25,878 nucleotides of DNA from a virus: the IMG/VR virus record IMGVR_UViG_3300043449_001191, positions 1 to 25,878 of that record; one strand, written 5' to 3'. The notes below the pieces were generated by a model. That model was not told the origin of the DNA. It saw only the letters and a program-made list of their open reading frames with translations, and searched no databases. The position numbers and the translations under genes were made by a program. Shown in pieces: positions 4,185-20,221 of this stretch (positions are counted from its first letter, which is position 1; each line of letters begins with the position of its first letter).

Positions 4185-4495
4185 TACCAAAGTTCCTTAC
4201 GCGCCCAATAGTTGGGGCTGAATTTGTCGTCCTTTGTCAGCTGTCCGTCTTTGTTTCGGATGCCGCCCGATCGCTTCAGGTAGTTCTCCCGGCGCTTGGG
4301 GTCCTTGTGTTGGGTGAAATCCTCGTAGCCCTTTTGGCCAAACTGAACGAGCTTTACTTCTTCACCCTTCTTTGCCAGCACCATCTTTTTCTTTGGGCTG
4401 TCCTTTGGTGCGCTTACTGGTTTGTTGAATCCCGGGAACTCCTTGCCCCGGTACATCAGCTTTCCGTTCTCCCGCTTTACGTTCGATGCTTTCAT
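4184..4495 (-). CDS. DUF5754-like small phage protein
   Basis: A 103-aa very basic protein. Residues 47-103 carry VKLVQFGQKGYEDF, then a lysine/arginine-rich turn (HKDPKRRENYLKRSGGIRNK) and a C-terminal SPNYWARKELW. That is the pattern of the DUF5754 family of phage proteins (KLVxFGxxxxxxxx...R+xxFRxRH...xxYWaxKxlW). The function is unknown. The basic character suggests contact with DNA or with an acidic virion surface. The ATG has AAAGGA 6 nt ahead, which lies inside the upstream glycosyltransferase ORF. The first 134 nt of this gene overlap that ORF in another frame, an unusually long overlap for this genome. Confidence 0.7.
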   Translation of the reverse strand: MKASNVKRENGKLMYRGKEFPGFNKPVSAPKDSPKKKMVLAKKGEEVKLVQFGQKGYEDFTQHKDPKRRENYLKRSGGIRNKDGQLTKDDKFSPNYWARKELW

Positions 4496-5345
4496 TGATG
4501 TCCTTTATCGCCTGGTCTGCCACCTCAAAAGGTGAGATCAGCTGCAGAGCGCTGCACTTCCTGTCGCACACGGAAGTGAATCCTCCTTGCGGCGTCCAGT
4601 GGCACATGCGGCATGGGATCTGTTCTGGCGGCATGACGGGCTTTACTGTCGGGCTGTGACGAAAAACAAAGTTCCCGTCGATCTGCCCGCACAATGCGAT
4701 TGCTTTGCTGCCATACAGGCCCGCCACATGAGCTGGGCCGCTGTCGTTACCGATCAGAATCTTGGCGTTACAGATGGCATTGACCACCCACTCTGGAGAC
4801 TGGCCCCAGAAGTACCTCACGCCAGACTTGGTAAACGCCTCGGTGAGCCGATCGCCATCGGTTGGTGACCCAATGGCTATGACGGTGTGCCCCTCGTTCA
4901 TCAGCAGCTTGGCGAGCATGCGCCAGTGATGGATGTCCCACTGCCTGTCTTCGTAGGCAGAGAAGGGTGCCAGGACGATGTAGTCTGTCGGCAGATCTGA
5001 ACAAGTGCCGAGCTTCTCGTACTCGAGCGGGCGGGCCGGCTGGGGCTTGCCCTTGATTACAGGGTGCAGAGTGTGAAGGTTCTGCATGTACCACAGGGAT
5101 CGCGACTCACATGTGCCAGTGCGCGATGCCTCTAGTTGCTCCGGATAGCCAGCATTGGCGTTAAAGACCTGTGGGTCTTTCTCTGGAACGATGGTGAGGT
5201 TAGGGTGCTTGAACCACTTCAGCCACGCAGTGTGCTTGGCGTGGAAAGTAACCAGGTGCCCTCTGTCTGCCAATCCGCATGCCGTATAGACACCGCAGAT
5301 CGCATCTCCTATTCCTTTTGCGTCTAGTCGAAATTCAATATTCAA
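4362..5345 (-). CDS. GT9-family (ADP-heptose transferase-like) glycosyltransferase
   Basis: A 327-aa GT-B-type glycosyltransferase. The N-terminal Rossmann lobe starts with a GIGD motif (11-14). The C-terminal lobe carries YIVLAPFSAYEDRQWDIHHW around 122-141 and the family signature LIGNDSGPAHVAGLYGSKAI at 197-216. Two Cys pairs (245/248, 260/264) follow. The GT9 family transfers heptose or similar sugars in LPS core synthesis. In a phage the acceptor could be host LPS or a virion protein. Here it sits between the capsid and connector genes, in the virion operon. The start is TTG, 8 nt after the stem of an intrinsic terminator, with no clear Shine-Dalgarno sequence. The last ~45 residues are low-complexity, basic, and overlap the next gene, so they look like a recent extension past an older stop. 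Confidence 0.85.
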   Translation of the reverse strand: MNIEFRLDAKGIGDAICGVYTACGLADRGHLVTFHAKHTAWLKWFKHPNLTIVPEKDPQVFNANAGYPEQLEASRTGTCESRSLWYMQNLHTLHPVIKGKPQPARPLEYEKLGTCSDLPTDYIVLAPFSAYEDRQWDIHHWRMLAKLLMNEGHTVIAIGSPTDGDRLTEAFTKSGVRYFWGQSPEWVVNAICNAKILIGNDSGPAHVAGLYGSKAIALCGQIDGNFVFRHSPTVKPVMPPEQIPCRMCHWTPQGGFTSVCDRKCSALQLISPFEVADQAIKDINESIERKAGERKADVPGQGVPGIQQTSKRTKGQPKEKDGAGKEG

Positions 5346-12906: not shown

Positions 12907-13566
12907 TCAAAAAAACCAGGCTTGTATACCCGGGTACCCCTGCCACTTCTGGATGCTTTTCACCCCCAGCTCTTCAGCCAGGATGTCAAAAGCGCCCTCT
13001 GAATAGAGAGATACGTGTCCATTTGCCGGGCCCAGGTACCACCAATCTCTTCCACAAGATCTTGGGTCGTAATAGGCGGTTTGAAACGCGAAAGATCCTC
13101 GAGCCAGCTCTCGAACATGTTTGAAACTCTCCATTGGATTAGTGAAATGCTCGACCACCTCACAGGCGGTCACGATATCGGCTCTCGGAGCCTGCTCTAG
13201 CGGGTAGAGACCTACCCCCCGGGGGTCACCCAGGTCGGCACCATAGGCCGTGAGACCCATCTCGCGGGCTTTCTTGACGAAATGCCCCTTGCCGCAGCCG
13301 TAATCGAGGACAGAAACCCCTTGCCGGCCTCCTGCCCATAGAAAAAGCCTAAGCGTCTCTAGAACACGCCCATCGTGGACGGGATCAAGACCAGACCAAT
13401 AAGCAGAACCGTAGTCAGCTTCATGATTGGCGAACAAAAAGTAACAGCTTTGACATTCATAGTAGAAAACAGCCTCCCCTTTAACGTCGATCGGACCCCC
13501 CGAACGCTTCAGTGAGGGGAGAGAGAACTTCTCAATAGCTTCTTTGCTACAAATTTTGCATTTCAT
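12907..13566 (-). CDS. SAM-dependent methyltransferase with N-terminal zinc ribbon
   Basis: A 219-aa class I methyltransferase. An N-terminal CxxC pair (3/6) and a second CxxC (38/41) form a zinc-ribbon-like head. Motif I is VLDYGCGKGHF at 86-96, with an acidic residue D111 ending strand 2. CEVVEHFTNPMESF (135-148) is the conserved motif of the Methyltransf_23-type family. Enzymes with this head often act on sugars or small molecules, and the substrate here is unknown. It is the first gene of the minus-strand set leaving the divergent region. It could act with the GT9 enzyme on glycans, but they are not adjacent. A run of A residues (12909-12915) spans the stop. Confidence 0.82.
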   Translation of the reverse strand: MKCKICSKEAIEKFSLPSLKRSGGPIDVKGEAVFYYECQSCYFLFANHEADYGSAYWSGLDPVHDGRVLETLRLFLWAGGRQGVSVLDYGCGKGHFVKKAREMGLTAYGADLGDPRGVGLYPLEQAPRADIVTACEVVEHFTNPMESFKHVRELARGSFAFQTAYYDPRSCGRDWWYLGPANGHVSLYSEGAFDILAEELGVKSIQKWQGYPGIQAWFF

Positions 13567-14698: not shown

Positions 14699-14977
14699 AT
14701 GCCTTGCAGCTCACTTAATACTGATTGCCATCTAGATGATCTTGTCTCTGCTATCCAGGATGTTAAGGGTGGCTTTGATGAGGATGTTCTTTGCGCCTCG
14801 GAGTATTCCCGGCGATTCTTTTCTGTTCATTACCCGCGACTGTCTGACGCCATCTCTGAGGCTGTCACCTTACTGGCTATTGTCGAAGAGGGTGACCAGC
14901 GTAATCGCCTGGTCTCCGGCCTTCCGGCAGAGACAGCCAGAAATCTAGCCAATCGGAGGGGGTCCAATCGTGCCTAA
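14699..14977 (+). CDS. 92-aa protein of unknown function
   Basis: Starts at ATG 14699 with GGAGG 7 nt ahead. A GTG at 14621 in the same frame lies inside the terminator and is rejected. The protein begins MPCSSLNTDCHLDDLVSAI, continues with helices (SDAISEAVTLLAIVEEG) and ends LANRRGSNRA. It has three Cys in its first third and no recognised motif. It overlaps the next GTG start by 8 nt. Probably a small soluble helical protein; no function can be given. Confidence 0.65.
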   Translation: MPCSSLNTDCHLDDLVSAIQDVKGGFDEDVLCASEYSRRFFSVHYPRLSDAISEAVTLLAIVEEGDQRNRLVSGLPAETARNLANRRGSNRA

Positions 14978-15170
14978 GTATTTTGTCCCTATGCACTTCA
15001 TTACCAAGACCGTAGTCGAGGCAGACAGCCTAGAGGAAGCCAAGGACTTTGCCGGCGATGACGACGACGAGTTCGAGGTAACCGCCAACTACTTACACAA
15101 ACCCGGTGGCCCATCGGTTGAATTCTCACATTTGGGAGCACCAGAACTCTTTGAAGGGGAACTCGAATGA
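14970..15170 (+). CDS. 66-aa acidic protein
   Basis: Starts with GTG, preceded by GGAGGG, inside the end of the previous gene. The sequence starts MPKYFVPMHFITKTVVEADS, with LEEAKDFAGDDDDEF following, and ends LFEGELE. The 'xxxxVEADSLEEAKxxA' pattern is common in small phage and bacterial proteins of a beta-alpha-beta type that have no known function. It is strongly acidic, which raises the possibility of DNA mimicry. Its TGA overlaps the next ATG. Confidence 0.7.
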   Translation: MPKYFVPMHFITKTVVEADSLEEAKDFAGDDDDEFEVTANYLHKPGGPSVEFSHLGAPELFEGELE

Positions 15171-15298: not shown

Positions 15299-15601
15299 AT
15301 GGAACTTTCTTTTTACATGCCGGTGGAGTGGGTAGAAAGCATCTCTTCCGGCGGAGATCCAGATAACGCTGACTTCGAGTCATATTATCTGGTGGAGTGG
15401 CTATCCGAGAACGATCATCTCAGGCTGGACCGTGTCGGTGACAGGCTATACACCGCTGACCATGTAGTGCCCGGCGATTACGAGGGCGATGAGCTGCTCT
15501 GTCGGGAAGTTCACTTCGTCCTCAAAGATCCTCGCCACCGTACGGTTCGCAAGGAGCTGCGTATTTCCGTGCCGGCGCCTACCAAACTACCACTACCTTA
15601 A
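15299..15601 (+). CDS. 100-aa protein with LPLP C-terminal tail
   Basis: AGGAGG lies 5 nt before the ATG. The protein begins MELSFYMPVEWVESISSG, is acidic in the centre (YYLVEWLSENDHLRLDRVGD) and has beta-rich sequence to residue 92. It ends PAPTKLPLP. Two more proteins in this operon end in LPLP. The stop codon TAA forms part of the next gene's AAGGAG. No family is recognised. The tail looks separate from the folded part and may be a tag. Confidence 0.7.
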   Translation: MELSFYMPVEWVESISSGGDPDNADFESYYLVEWLSENDHLRLDRVGDRLYTADHVVPGDYEGDELLCREVHFVLKDPRHRTVRKELRISVPAPTKLPLP

Positions 15602-15611
15602 GGAGATTCAA

Positions 15612-15797
15612 ATGATTCGAGAACTACTGCTGTCTGTGGATATCAGCAATCGTGATTCCATATTGTCAACTATCAGCTACCTGTATTCCATTGTCCCGGC
15701 GACAGACGACGAAGCCTTCATGACCCTGGACTACAACCAGCTGGGCGATCCCTTCAACCAATCAGGAGCAAGCCATGCCGAACTGGACCATCAATGA
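15612..15797 (+). CDS. 61-aa protein of unknown function
   Basis: ATG 15612 has AAGGAG 6 nt ahead. The protein starts MIRELLLSVDISNRDSILST, has a helix-rich first half and an acidic/polar second half ending SHAELDHQ. The last 23 nt overlap the next gene, whose RBS (AGGAG) is inside this frame. A longer in-frame ORF starts inside the previous gene and is not preferred. No function is recognised. Confidence 0.65.
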   Translation: MIRELLLSVDISNRDSILSTISYLYSIVPATDDEAFMTLDYNQLGDPFNQSGASHAELDHQ

Positions 15798-16377
15798 TGT
15801 GACCTTCACCGGCCCGAAGGAGACCGCTCTCAAGATTCTTGAGGCGTTCCGTTCCGACGCGCCGTTCAATGCGCTGCGACCCTGTCCCGAGGAGCTTCGC
15901 AATCAGAAGACGACTACCTACGGTGGAGATAGCGCGGAATCCTTAGATCAGCTTCGGGCTGAGATGAAAGCAAAGTACGGCTATGAAAGCTGGTACGACT
16001 GGCAGATCGCCAACTGGGGTTGTAAGTGGGATACCTCAGACATCCAGATTATTCACAGTGGGGAAGGGCTAACTGATAACTCCGTGGGCCTGTCCTGGTT
16101 TGCCGTGCGATTCGATACTCCCTGGGGACCGCCAGACCGGCTACTTGAGTGGCTCAGTACGCAGTACCCAGACCTCGAGATCGAAGGCTTTCACACCCAG
16201 GAGGAAGACGGACATGACACCGCTTACAACTTTCAGATCTTCAAAGGGGAGTGGATCAACAAAGGAGAGGAGAGCCTTATATCCGACGAGTCGTGGGACG
16301 ACGACGAGGAAGACTGTCCAGACGACCCATCTTTCCGTGCCGTTACCGGTACGGCCACCAGATTGCCACTGCCATAA
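15775..16377 (+). CDS. Api92/YubB-like (DUF1281-type) protein with LPLP tail
   Basis: A 200-aa protein. MPNWTINDVTFTG at the start, PFNALRPCPEEL in the first third, YGYESWYDWQIANWGCKWDT at 68-87, and a later FDTPWGPPDRLLEWLSTQYP block match the Api92-like/YubB (DUF1281) family. That family occurs on plasmids and phages and has a ferredoxin-like domain, but its function is unknown. The C-terminal ~30 residues are acidic and end VTGTATRLPLP, a tail shared with neighbouring proteins. CAGGAG precedes the ATG. The stop is immediately followed by the next gene's GGAGG. Confidence 0.8.
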   Translation: MPNWTINDVTFTGPKETALKILEAFRSDAPFNALRPCPEELRNQKTTTYGGDSAESLDQLRAEMKAKYGYESWYDWQIANWGCKWDTSDIQIIHSGEGLTDNSVGLSWFAVRFDTPWGPPDRLLEWLSTQYPDLEIEGFHTQEEDGHDTAYNFQIFKGEWINKGEESLISDESWDDDEEDCPDDPSFRAVTGTATRLPLP

Positions 16378-16385
16378 GGAGGCGC

Positions 16386-16727
16386 ATGAAAACAGAAGAC
16401 TTCTTAACCAAGTGCAAGACCGACCTCGAAGAGGTTATGTCTTCGATCGCCGCCATCAAAGGTAAGTCTTTCGTAGAGATCCTAACTATCCACATCAACA
16501 TGTGCACGCTTGTAACTCTTATCGGCCTGCTAGAGGAAGAAGAAATCAACGAAAAACTACATCAGATGCTCACCAAATCATCATTGGTATGCGCTAGTTC
16601 ATCGCTGCAAAAGCTGTCTGAGTTGGCCAACCTCAGCGAGGAGGATGTCAAAGAGATCATCGCCTGGGGCGATCGGCTGCATTTAATGATGGATCAGAAC
16701 GTACAAAACGCGAAAGGAAACAAATGA
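16386..16727 (+). CDS. 113-aa helical protein of unknown function
   Basis: ATG 16386 has AAGGAGG 3 nt ahead. All helical by composition: an N-terminal helix (EDFLTKCKTDLEEVMSSIAA), a central hydrophobic stretch (FVEILTIHINMCTLVTLIGL, 29-48), then a charged EEEEINEKLHQML and C-terminal helices. The central stretch may be a membrane or helix-bundle core segment. It overlaps the next start by 4 nt. No family is recognised. Confidence 0.7.
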   Translation: MKTEDFLTKCKTDLEEVMSSIAAIKGKSFVEILTIHINMCTLVTLIGLLEEEEINEKLHQMLTKSSLVCASSSLQKLSELANLSEEDVKEIIAWGDRLHLMMDQNVQNAKGNK

Positions 16728-17077
16728 AGTACTTCACCCACAACCAGCTACCCGTCAGCATCGATAACACCTGTCTTCAGGGGCACATCAGAACCGGATA
16801 CCAAGAGCTGGTGTCTGCCTTTGGTAAGCAGGTAGGGCCAGAGTTGTTTGACACCATCAAGTCAGATGCCGAGTGGCACATCCAGTTCGAGGATGGGTTG
16901 ATCGCCACTGTCTACAACTGGAAGAACGGCAGGAATTACTGCGGACCCAGCGCTCCGGCGGCCCATGAAATTACTGAATGGAACATCGGCGGCAAGTCAG
17001 AAGAGGTAGTGCAACGTATCCATTCGCTAGTACGAGGAGACGTTACTGGTTCGGCAGCCGCTCTTCCTTTGCCTTGA
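16724..17077 (+). CDS. 117-aa protein with LPLP C-terminal tail
   Basis: It begins MKYFTHNQLPVSIDNTCLQG, has a segment EWHIQFEDGLIATVYNWKNG at about 50-69 and EITEWNIGGKSEEVVQRI near 82-99. The 'EWxIxFxDGxxATIYNxKxG...WxIGG' pattern is one I have seen in phage proteins of unknown function. It ends VTGSAAALPLP, matching the tail of the DUF1281-type protein. The ATG overlaps the preceding TGA. The last 10-12 residues look like an appended tag. Confidence 0.75.
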   Translation: MKYFTHNQLPVSIDNTCLQGHIRTGYQELVSAFGKQVGPELFDTIKSDAEWHIQFEDGLIATVYNWKNGRNYCGPSAPAAHEITEWNIGGKSEEVVQRIHSLVRGDVTGSAAALPLP

Positions 17078-17087
17078 GATATCAGCT

Positions 17088-17228
17088 ATGCACAACATCT
17101 GCACAGTAGTAGCTATTCTATTAGCAATAGTAACACATCTGTTTGGTTTCTGTGTAGTTCTAGTGGTGAAGCCCGCCCCTCTTGGTGAGGGCGGACTTCC
17201 CCTCAACCTTAACTGGAGGAATGTATGA
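17088..17228 (+). CDS. 46-aa putative membrane protein
   Basis: The frame starts at ATG 17088 and ends in an ATGA overlap with the amidoligase start. It begins MHNICTVVAILLAIVTHLF, a hydrophobic segment running to about residue 27, followed by KPAPLGEGGLPLNLN and a basic end. The RBS is weak. The hairpin at 17168-17199 lies within the frame. The stop/start coupling and one clear hydrophobic segment support a real gene; shortness and weak RBS argue against. No family is known. Confidence 0.45.
   Translation: MHNICTVVAILLAIVTHLFGFCVVLVVKPAPLGEGGLPLNLNWRNV
17168..17199 (+). promoter_or_regulatory. Hairpin ahead of the amidoligase
   Basis: GAAG-CCCGCCCCTC pairs with GAGGGCGG-A-CTTC, with a TTGGT loop and one bulge and one mismatch. 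It resembles leader hairpins A and B. Pyrimidine sequence follows, but no T-run, so termination is unlikely. It may control translation or stability of the amidoligase mRNA, whose GGAGG site lies 15 nt downstream. Confidence 0.5.
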
Positions 17229-18754
17229 CACCTAAGTTTCTTTTCTACCTGCATCGCAGGATCTTCGTTGAGCAGTACGGTCGGGCAGAGATGCTCGACA
17301 TCCTGGCACGCAAGACTCTCAAGTCAATGGCCAGGGCAACGGGCGGTCGCATGTCAGCCAACAAGTGGATGCGCACAATCGAATGGCTCTACCGCACCAC
17401 GGGTAGCGGTTCTTTGGTGCGCTACCCCGAGCTCGATCAGTTCGTCGAAGCATTTAAGGATGCGCTGTCCAAGTACGTGCGTACTCACAAGACATCTATT
17501 GGCAGGGTCTTGATGATGCTCGACTACCTTGACTACAAGGTGGGATTTCCATCTGATTCGACCGCGCCTGTGTATGAATTTACCAGGCGTTTGACTCAAC
17601 ACCTTCCGGAGTTCGAGGCACGCAATGACTTGGAATTCTTCAGGGAGTTCACCGGTTGCATCGATATGGTCACTGCTTCTTGTGGCCACATCCACATCGG
17701 CAGCCAAATCGTGCACTTTGTGGGCAACGAGGAAAGCCCAAACATCCGATCCTCCGTTTGTCCAGCTTGCGCTCAAGCCGCCATCGATTCGGGCCTGCGA
17801 CAGTACACACGGGACAACGACCTGGTGCTGACTCAGTTCATAGAGACAATCCATACGAACGCAGAACGCACCTACCGAAGTGACCGCCGAGCGGATGGGA
17901 TTACTTTCAACGAGCGGCTTCAGGTCTACGTTGACCGGTACTGGACACCGTACTCCAACGTTATTGACGCATACCACAGCTCACGTACCCGTGGCTTTGC
18001 CATCGTTGAGAGTGCCTGGTTCAAGCGCCATCGCCGTGCTTATGGCCTCGAGCTAGAGGTTCAGAACCGAAACGGGGAGAACAGTCAGACAGCAGCTGGT
18101 CGTATCCATGAGGTACTCAACCCGTCGCTGCGGCGTGGCGAGTACTGCTACTTCGAGCGGGATGCGTCCATTGGCGAAGGCTTTGAGATCGTCACCCAAC
18201 CTGCTGGCCTGGACATTCACCGGGAAAAGCTGGCTCTGTTCCTCAACAACGAAGATCTCAAGCGTGGCTTGCGCTCACATGAGGGTGGCAACTGCGGCTT
18301 ACACATCCACGTTGGCCGGCAGTTCCTGACTCAGGCTCAGATCTACCGAGTCCAGTCGTTCCTCAATGACGTACGCAACGAGGGTCTGATCCGCAAGATC
18401 TCTCGCCGTTACAGCAACAGCTACGCCCGCATCAAGTACGAGATGGCCAAACTGTCAGCGATCGGCAAGAACTCAGGCGAGCGTTACGAAGCACTGAACG
18501 TAACCAACCGAGACACGGTGGAGTTCCGCATCTTCCGTGGCTCACTGCGATACGAGTCTGTGGTCGCAGCCCTCGAGTTCGTGGATTCCTTGCTGACCTT
18601 CTGCATGCCAGGTCAGACCTCGATCATGGACTTCAACGCCATCGGTTTCAGGAAGTTCGTAACCAGACCAGAGAACCACGAAGACACCACCTATCTTCGT
18701 AGTTATCTATCTCTCAATGCAAACACTGACAACGAGCACCGCCTCGCTGCCTAA
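17225..18754 (+). CDS. Amidoligase_2-like ATP-dependent ligase with N-terminal Cys/His domain
   Basis: A 509-aa protein. Residues 1-140 are mostly helical. A Cys/His cluster (C153, H155, H157, C179, C182) may be a zinc site. The C-terminal half carries the amidoligase core: GLELEVQ (274-280), ERDASIGEGFEIVTQP (311-326), CGLHIHVG (357-364) and NVTNRDTVEFRIFRGSL (425-441). In the glutamine-synthetase-like superfamily such residues bind ATP and metal and form an amide between a carboxylate and an amine. The substrate here is unknown. GGAGG precedes the ATG. The neighbouring gene is a class II glutamine amidotransferase. The protein ends HRLAA, similar to ssrA-type LAA degrons. Family assigned by motifs, not by search. 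Confidence 0.82.
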   Translation: MTPKFLFYLHRRIFVEQYGRAEMLDILARKTLKSMARATGGRMSANKWMRTIEWLYRTTGSGSLVRYPELDQFVEAFKDALSKYVRTHKTSIGRVLMMLDYLDYKVGFPSDSTAPVYEFTRRLTQHLPEFEARNDLEFFREFTGCIDMVTASCGHIHIGSQIVHFVGNEESPNIRSSVCPACAQAAIDSGLRQYTRDNDLVLTQFIETIHTNAERTYRSDRRADGITFNERLQVYVDRYWTPYSNVIDAYHSSRTRGFAIVESAWFKRHRRAYGLELEVQNRNGENSQTAAGRIHEVLNPSLRRGEYCYFERDASIGEGFEIVTQPAGLDIHREKLALFLNNEDLKRGLRSHEGGNCGLHIHVGRQFLTQAQIYRVQSFLNDVRNEGLIRKISRRYSNSYARIKYEMAKLSAIGKNSGERYEALNVTNRDTVEFRIFRGSLRYESVVAALEFVDSLLTFCMPGQTSIMDFNAIGFRKFVTRPENHEDTTYLRSYLSLNANTDNEHRLAA

Positions 18755-18767
18755 GAAAGGAATTCCC

Positions 18768-19856
18768 ATGTGCATTCTGATTCATCACACCGCTGACACC
18801 AACTTCGAGCTGGGTCACCTGCAAGACTTTTACTCCAAGAACCCAGACGGATTCGGCGCAATGGTCAAGAAACCAGACGGCGTCAAGATCATCAAGACCG
18901 TTGGCAATCTCGATGAGATCCATGAGCTGTACAACAACGAGATCAAAGGGCACGAAGCTGTCATCCACTTCCGTATGAAGACACACGGTGACATCGACCT
19001 GTTCAACTGCCACCCCTATCAGGTGACAGAGAATCTGTGGATGGCACACAACGGCATCCTATCCACCGGTAACCACGCAGACCTCACCAAGTCTGACACC
19101 TGGCATTACATCCAGAACTTCCTGCGCCCGCTACTCATGCGTGACCAGTCACTGATCCATGAGCCAGCTTTCCAAAAGCTCATCGAATCTCACATTAGTA
19201 GCAGCAACAAGTTCGGTTTCATGGACAACGACGGCAAGGTCGTCGTCATTAACCGCAGCGCCGGCGTCAATCACTTCGGCGCATGGCTATCCAATACCTA
19301 CGCCTGGTCGCCCATGAAGTGGGGCTACTACTCCGCTACCTACGGCAGTGGATATAGCAATGGGCATGGCAGCTACTACGGCGGCAGCCTGCTCAATGGC
19401 AATCGCTATGGCTATGCCTCAGAAGATCCCATCTGGGATCAGAAGAGCAAGACATGGGTTGATCCGGCCCCCAAGAGCAAGCCACTTACGAGAAAGGAGA
19501 AGAAAGCACAAAGAAAAAAGTCCCAAAGGTTCGACGCAATCGACCGTGGAATAAAGCCCGTCAAACAACTGTCCACTGACTCGCTGGGTCGAATCATTCG
19601 CTCTTGCTACAACGCCATGTCCAGGAATCCAACGGCTGGCCTGACTGACTGGGTAATCATGAATCCAATGAAGGCGATGTACATGATTCGAGAGTTCTAC
19701 CCAGAAATGTACGAGCCATCTGAGATCTCAGACATCGTCAACTCAGATCCGGACGAAGCAGCCGCCATCCTCGAGGCCGCTTGGTATGAGTGCGAAGAAG
19801 ACATGATGGCTATAGCAGGAATCCCATTCACTTACGAACAAGGAGCATTAATTTGA
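18768..19856 (+). CDS. Class II glutamine amidotransferase (Ntn hydrolase)
   Basis: A 362-aa protein whose second residue is Cys (MCILIHH), the usual nucleophile after Met removal. That decides the start at ATG 18768, with AAAGGA ahead; an earlier ATG at 18717 would bury the Cys. Further motifs are NPDGFGAM (25-32), HFRMKTHGDID (67-77), and the oxyanion pair in AHNGIL (93-98). The family releases ammonia from glutamine for a partner synthase or ligase, here presumably the amidoligase 13 nt upstream. Residues 186-216 are a Gly/Tyr/Ser-rich insertion and 235-254 are strongly basic. The C-terminal ~100 residues are helical and unassigned. It overlaps the next start. Confidence 0.88.
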   Translation: MCILIHHTADTNFELGHLQDFYSKNPDGFGAMVKKPDGVKIIKTVGNLDEIHELYNNEIKGHEAVIHFRMKTHGDIDLFNCHPYQVTENLWMAHNGILSTGNHADLTKSDTWHYIQNFLRPLLMRDQSLIHEPAFQKLIESHISSSNKFGFMDNDGKVVVINRSAGVNHFGAWLSNTYAWSPMKWGYYSATYGSGYSNGHGSYYGGSLLNGNRYGYASEDPIWDQKSKTWVDPAPKSKPLTRKEKKAQRKKSQRFDAIDRGIKPVKQLSTDSLGRIIRSCYNAMSRNPTAGLTDWVIMNPMKAMYMIREFYPEMYEPSEISDIVNSDPDEAAAILEAAWYECEEDMMAIAGIPFTYEQGALI

Positions 19857-20221
19857 ACGCAACCCTATTCAGCAGAGGCGTGCACAACATTCTCAATGGG
19901 TGGTCAAACACCATGCCAGTCGAATGTTCAACGTGGCGCCAGATGATGCGCAGCATTGGCAACAGCACCGATGGAACTAGCTCTCCTCACTTTTACAGGA
20001 ACGTCGTCGGCCCCACTTGCGCCAGCCGTAACGTTCCGTTCTTTCATCTAACCGATGAGGAGAGGAAGGAGTACCGGAATTTGTGGACAGCGCTTAACCC
20101 AATCACAGATGCACCAAAGCACACCGCTTTGTATCTGTACCTGGTCAAGCACAACCGACTCGATGAGTTTCTTACCGCATACAAGGAGGCTGAGAATGCG
20201 CCCGCTACCCAGCCTGCTTGA
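19853..20221 (+). CDS. 122-aa protein of unknown function
   Basis: Starts at TTG 19853 with AAGGAG 7 nt ahead and the upstream TGA overlapping, so an upstream in-frame start inside the amidotransferase gene is rejected. It begins MNATLFSRGVHNILNGWSN, contains TWRQMMRSIGNSTDG and a conserved-looking FFHLTDEERKEYRNLWTALN at 73-92, and ends NAPATQPA. It is helical and soluble. It is translationally coupled to the amidoligase/amidotransferase pair and may serve as a partner or substrate. No family is recognised. Confidence 0.65.
   Translation: MNATLFSRGVHNILNGWSNTMPVECSTWRQMMRSIGNSTDGTSSPHFYRNVVGPTCASRNVPFFHLTDEERKEYRNLWTALNPITDAPKHTALYLYLVKHNRLDEFLTAYKEAENAPATQPA

Follow-up and report, generated by a model that had tools for sequence, protein, structure and literature searches.

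A phage amidoligase–glutamine amidotransferase pair and a C-terminal motif on neighboring proteins that may be its clients

The window, i.e. the whole stretch of 25,878 nucleotides analyzed here, is a 25.9-kb virus contig, with nothing of the genome beyond it. Based on its gene content, with a terminase and structural-looking genes on the minus strand and small accessory genes on the plus strand, we assign it to a tailed phage. The accessory region harbors the genes for a predicted amidoligase and a class II glutamine amidotransferase, preceded by a group of small genes (Table 1). Both open reading frames of the enzyme pair were found where the initial annotation had placed them, separated by an intergenic gap of 13 nt. 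The 148-nt gap in front of the ligase gene (17077-17225) holds a GC-rich imperfect inverted repeat (GCCCGCCCCTCTTGGTGAGGGCGG). On the minus strand, a glycosyltransferase of family 9 (heptosyltransferase-like) is encoded among the structural genes at 4362-5345 (PF01075, E 3e-11; partial NCBIfam matches to LPS heptosyltransferase). A methyltransferase-like protein with several cysteines near its N-terminus is encoded at 12907-13566 on the same strand and shows weak NCBIfam matches to a DNA phosphorothioation-associated methyltransferase and to UbiG. Rfam gave no match, and PADLOC gave no defence match.

Table 1. Genes in and around the enzyme pair. "Tagged" denotes the C-terminal motif described in the text.
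Feature	Position	Strand	Remarks
w100: small acidic tagged protein, 100 aa, pI 4.7, ends ISVPAPTKLPLP	15299..15601	+	tag kept in L106 and L215 homologues
w200: small acidic tagged protein, 200 aa, pI 4.2, Api92-like DUF1281_C (PF18406), ends AVTGTATRLPLP	15775..16377	+	
Protein H: conserved, predicted helical, untagged	16386..16727	+	second gene upstream of the ligase in aligned relatives (alignment A6); no family match
w117: small tagged protein, 117 aa, pI 5.6, ends DVTGSAAALPLP	16724..17077	+	tag also in L106 homologue (...DITGQSTRLPLP)
GS-fold amidoligase (Amidoligase_2), 509 aa	17225..18754	+	N-terminal helical domain, Cys/His knuckle, C-terminal catalytic domain 263-500
Class II (Ntn) glutamine amidotransferase, 362 aa, catalytic Cys2	18768..19856	+	begins MCILIHH at 18768, stop at 19856; glutaminase 1-190, disordered linker, C-terminal helical domain 270-350
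Gene, 122 aa, untagged	19853..20221	+	overlaps the amidotransferase stop; ORF position; no family match

The ligase passes the threshold of the Pfam family Amidoligase_2 (PF12224; 28 bits, cut-off 22). An alignment of 55 diverse homologues revealed G274, E276, E278, D313, G319, E321, C357, G358, H360, and H362 as invariant, together with R395, R420, N425, T431, E433, and R435. The AlphaFold2 model (pLDDT 92) returned glutamine synthetase, Dop, and YbdK as the top Foldseek matches, with PafA lower, and the matches include the small-substrate enzymes GS, GmaS, and YbdK. VIA alignment of residues 263-501 gave Z values of 11-12 to YbdK, GS, and glutamate-cysteine ligase (GCL), a comparison that barely covers the N-terminal half. 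Fold and active site support an amide-forming ligase, which would act in an ATP-dependent manner. Its N-terminal part contains a CxH/CxxC..CxxC knuckle (C153, H155, C179, C182), which had initially been regarded as unusual. Since none of the 55 homologues deviates at C153, C179, or C182, the knuckle is normal for this family.

The amidotransferase carries the class II signature, with C2 following the initiator methionine and R69, N95-G96, and D110 of the glutamine pocket. In 45 homologues, C2, R69, T72-H73-G74, H82-P83, N95-G96, and S109-D110-T111 are invariant. The window copy scores 22.6 bits against Pfam GATase_4, 0.4 under the cut-off of 23, which is exceeded by its relatives in L017 (26.7) and L020 (30.2). 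NCBIfam yielded only partial GlmS/PurF matches and no family membership, and the top match of a profile search against PDB was GlmS (E 0.0075). Likewise, the AlphaFold2 model (pLDDT 82) matched the glutaminase domain of GlmS (3.1e-6) and EgtC (2.7e-4) in Foldseek. The Gly/Tyr-rich and basic insertions of this protein, which had also been called unusual, fall into residues 192-263, a linker modelled with low confidence that joins the Ntn domain to the C-terminal helical domain, and are ordinary for the family. The motifs that the initial annotation quoted for the two enzymes were all found and are conserved among homologues. Moreover, the catalytic residues are kept throughout the 55 ligases and 45 amidotransferases, and GS-like and Ntn folds were indeed predicted (AlphaFold2, Foldseek, VIA).

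A single-sequence scan of viral contigs with the amidotransferase gave no matches, whereas an alignment-based scan did find loci. Searching from the amidotransferase alone resulted in 80 loci, with the ligase gene directly upstream in 78 and the other two amidotransferase genes starting at a contig edge. The search from the ligase also gave 80 loci, 75 of them with the amidotransferase and three of the remaining five ending at a contig edge; both searches share many contigs, so that these counts do not represent independent samples of phages. The expected co-occurrence of the two genes in related phages is therefore borne out. Annotated relatives with the pair include Caudoviricetes sp. MW202733, Methylophilales phage MEP401, the Marvin-like mycobacteriophages, and Acinetobacter phage vB_AciJM_313. 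With regard to the amide-forming route proposed initially, the ligase and its partner glutaminase are well supported by folds, active sites, and near-universal adjacency, whereas we infer the transfer of ammonia between the two proteins.

The pair had been presented as a new cassette, but it represents a known phage module, since an amidoligase together with a glutamine amidotransferase has been reported in several phage groups, namely the LUZ24-like phages (PMC3517423, PMC3890496) and the OM43 phages (PMC10580990, which cites Mageeney et al. 2012 for Marvin). Hence, we regard the enzyme pair as confirmed and of an already known kind, which PMC10580990 and PMC11318856 attribute to Iyer et al. 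2009, along with a cell-wall, anti-superinfection role in phage phiEco32. None of the papers found on phage amidoligase-amidotransferase pairs states a substrate. As in the window, Amidoligase_2 and class II amidotransferase genes lie close together in the accessory or early region of the LUZ24-like phages tf and UFV-P2, the Marvin-like mycobacteriophages, and the OM43 phages MEP401/402. In the Marvin-like and MEP phages they are directly adjacent and in the same order. UFV-P2 differs in that an HNH endonuclease gene separates the two and in that a COOH-NH2_lig protein and an ATP-grasp enzyme are also encoded in the vicinity. The Pfam families searched for these two enzyme types, PF14395 and PF18299, had no match in 12 contigs, which may be fragments and in which the controls were likewise without a match.

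The initial annotation missed the tagged proteins encoded beside the pair; these are relevant to the question of the substrate. Upstream of the ligase, the window encodes three unrelated small proteins with the endings VPAPTKLPLP, VTGTATRLPLP, and VTGSAAALPLP. The consensus of this tag, located near the C-terminus, is roughly [VIT]G-x-x-[TA]-x-[LIVM]P[LF]P, and at least five protein families beside the pair bear it in relatives with the same ligase clade: A5, w117, the Api92-like w200, w100, plus single genes in G001 and G004. A5 directly precedes the ligase gene in most relatives, and the tag is the most conserved part of A5. To quantify the motif, we took the 16 contigs whose ligases are closest, three of them as their first 20 kb and the others in full, and called genes with a simple codon-usage caller. 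The window and G001 were left out of the enrichment count because their motifs had defined the pattern. In the 15 contigs counted, 15 of the 159 genes close to the pair and 0 of the 650 genes elsewhere had [LIVM]P[LF]P among their last 30 residues (Fisher p 1.5e-11, which is overstated, as orthologues account for many of the matches). In its strict form, G-x(2,3)-[TASV]-x-[LIVM]P[LF]P, the motif was present in the last 34 residues of 17 of 899 genes, compared to 0.02 on average when each C-terminus was shuffled, and it had no internal occurrence among the 899 genes.

Codons differ in every copy of the tag. The terminase of L215 is 93% identical to that of the window, and its w100 and w200 orthologues are 47-48% identical overall; despite this drift elsewhere, they keep KLPLP and RLPLP exactly. 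Between 0 and more than 20 residues follow the motif. Because these tails vary in length, the tag is not an exact C-terminal signal, and the enzyme is unlikely to simply amidate a conserved C-terminus. Codon use and conservation mark the tag as a feature of the peptide, and as a sequence feature it is real. No C-terminal tag has been described for the known phage modules (tf, UFV-P2, Marvin-like, MEP401/402), and our literature search found no mention of one, so that it is apparently new to the literature. The stretch "VGSYTK" bears what we take to be a faint resemblance to encapsulin cargo peptides (LTVGSL-type).

Some counts and candidates were discarded. A count of the loose motif over all ORFs (plus strand 56/4567, minus strand 11/4303) was too crude owing to shadow ORFs and repeated contigs, and was replaced by called genes on the longer contigs. 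An unbiased pairwise comparison of C-termini within loci placed pairs from the window and L107 near the top, but without a clean separation from noise. An LPLP-like match in L283 proved to be a shadow ORF, and the family-A alignment was too diverged for a scan of the collection. In L071, L074, L087, and L097, which carry distant-clade ligases, the gene immediately upstream of the ligase ends in the tag-reminiscent KKARRIPVPA, KKARRIPAPA, RKARVLPAVG, or KNVRRIPTPS. These "IPVP" endings of L071-like loci were not counted as tags because they are confined to one homologous family. The region 14970-15170 (+) of the window and 9327-9554 of L106 both match phrog_14649, and only the L106 copy carries a tag (...VGEMTRIPFPDGRAYA).

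The distribution of the tag was compared with both the ligase and the phage lineage. Homologues of w117 are untagged in L211, L212, L258, L260, L266, and L290, where no ligase was found (judged by a search of the phage collection for L211 and L212, in which the homologues stop before the tag, and on the fetched stretch for L258 to L290; the latter four are the few ligase-less close relatives examined). They are also untagged in L061, L064, L065, L067, and L092, phages with a distant-clade ligase. The tag of w200 is kept in the homologues from L107 and L215 and absent from those of L213, L214, and L235. Among the terminase relatives, the tag is present in every contig whose ligase is at least 45% identical to that of the window, and in no contig with a distant-clade ligase. 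L235, with a terminase 75% identical to that of the window and a distant ligase, encodes untagged homologues of two tagged window proteins, whereas L272, with a 71% identical terminase and a window-clade ligase, is tagged, which suggests that the tag goes with the ligase. The state of the tag changes once on the ligase tree and twice on the terminase tree. These trees slightly favor an association of the tag with the ligase over one with the terminase; given how weak this difference is, much of the distribution is accounted for by vertical descent. In L246, the sister of the tagged clade, a degenerate version, IGSLAKPNLP, is present (in the same contig as L014). The distribution of protein H nearly equals that of the tag, and protein H could be its reader. 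Most phages with the pair belong to distant ligase clades and have no such tag, which must therefore be dispensable for the chemistry as such. At 4114-5291 of L211, a w117 homologue directly follows a gene that phage MW202796 has annotated as "antirestriction protein", which hints at a possible role of the w117 family against host defence.

Two known types of system offer a comparison. PafA, the pupylation ligase, and Dop, the depupylase/deamidase, share the GS fold with the window ligase, are among its best Foldseek matches, and work on a small protein partner. In contrast, the window system has a separate amidotransferase, and a PDB-chain profile search gave no sequence relationship to them. 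No Pup-like gene was noticed on inspection of the list of window ORFs. Microviridin ATP-grasp ligases are peptide ligases of the RiPP type, whose precursors contain a recognition sequence. The likeness here lies in a short conserved motif on otherwise different clients beside an amide-forming enzyme, but those ligases have the ATP-grasp instead of the GS fold, and in our case the motif is located near the C-terminus of larger proteins and no core peptide was recognized.

On this basis, we propose that Cys2 of the Ntn glutaminase would release ammonia from glutamine, which would pass to the ligase. The GS-fold amidoligase would use ATP to activate a carboxylate as acyl phosphate and couple it with ammonia, resulting in an amide. 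In the phage clade of the window, the clients would be the small, mostly acidic, motif-bearing proteins of the same putative accessory operon, with the motif acting as a docking peptide that brings the tagged protein to the enzyme. The tagged protein could then be the substrate itself, amidated at Asp/Glu or a terminal carboxylate, or an adaptor delivering the enzyme to a host target. The adaptor role, with diverse domains sharing one docking peptide, fits as well as the substrate role. That the two proteins form an amidation enzyme with the motif-bearing neighbors as its most likely clients falls just short of an even call. Binding of the tag by the enzyme seems possible, if a shade more doubtful. 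The full proposal of tag-directed protein amidation, in which a 10-residue C-terminal docking motif marks unrelated proteins as clients of the amidoligase-glutaminase, is put forward only tentatively.

The main rival is an ordinary phage module that has the cell wall or a metabolite as its target, e.g. by amidating a peptidoglycan or surface carboxylate against superinfection, with the tag unrelated to this chemistry. Consistent with it are the phiEco32 role that PMC10580990 and PMC11318856 ascribe to Iyer et al. 2009, the distant-clade pairs that work without any tag, and the Foldseek matches to small-substrate enzymes. But no recognized cell-wall gene adjoins the pair, and a peptide tag on unrelated proteins that is restricted to the genes around the pair would be left unexplained. 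We consider this alternative possible, though doubtful.

It is also possible that the tag has a lineage-specific role apart from the enzyme, since it largely follows the phage lineage, too. It might be a short linear motif by which a host protein is recruited or early phage proteins are brought to one site (e.g. a polymerase, clamp, or capsid), with the enzyme merely located in the same accessory region. The tagged proteins are indeed small accessory-region proteins, the tag tracks the lineage almost as closely as it tracks the ligase, and protein H shows almost the same distribution; the lack of tagged genes among the 650 counted elsewhere in these genomes and the opposite tag states of L235 and L272 argue against such a role, which we regard as unlikely. 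A feature at the DNA level, such as a recombination linker or an overlapping regulatory element that reads as LPLP by chance, might be suspected where copies of the tag overlap the ribosome-binding site of the next gene (CCTTAAGGAG, CCATAAGGAGG). However, codon choice varies between copies (CTACCACTACCT, TTGCCACTGCCA, CTTCCTTTGCCT) as well as among relatives, both the reading frame and the residues are conserved, and the tails differ in length, all of which disfavors such an origin and makes it appear highly improbable.

Amidoligase-amidotransferase pairs have been predicted since 2009 and are present in many phage groups, and the tag now yields named candidate clients for a test at the bench. 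If the preferred reading, tag-directed protein amidation, holds true, these proteins would be the first identified protein clients of a widespread phage enzyme module. Phages would then have their own counterpart of tag-guided protein modification, and the tag would be a new short linear motif.
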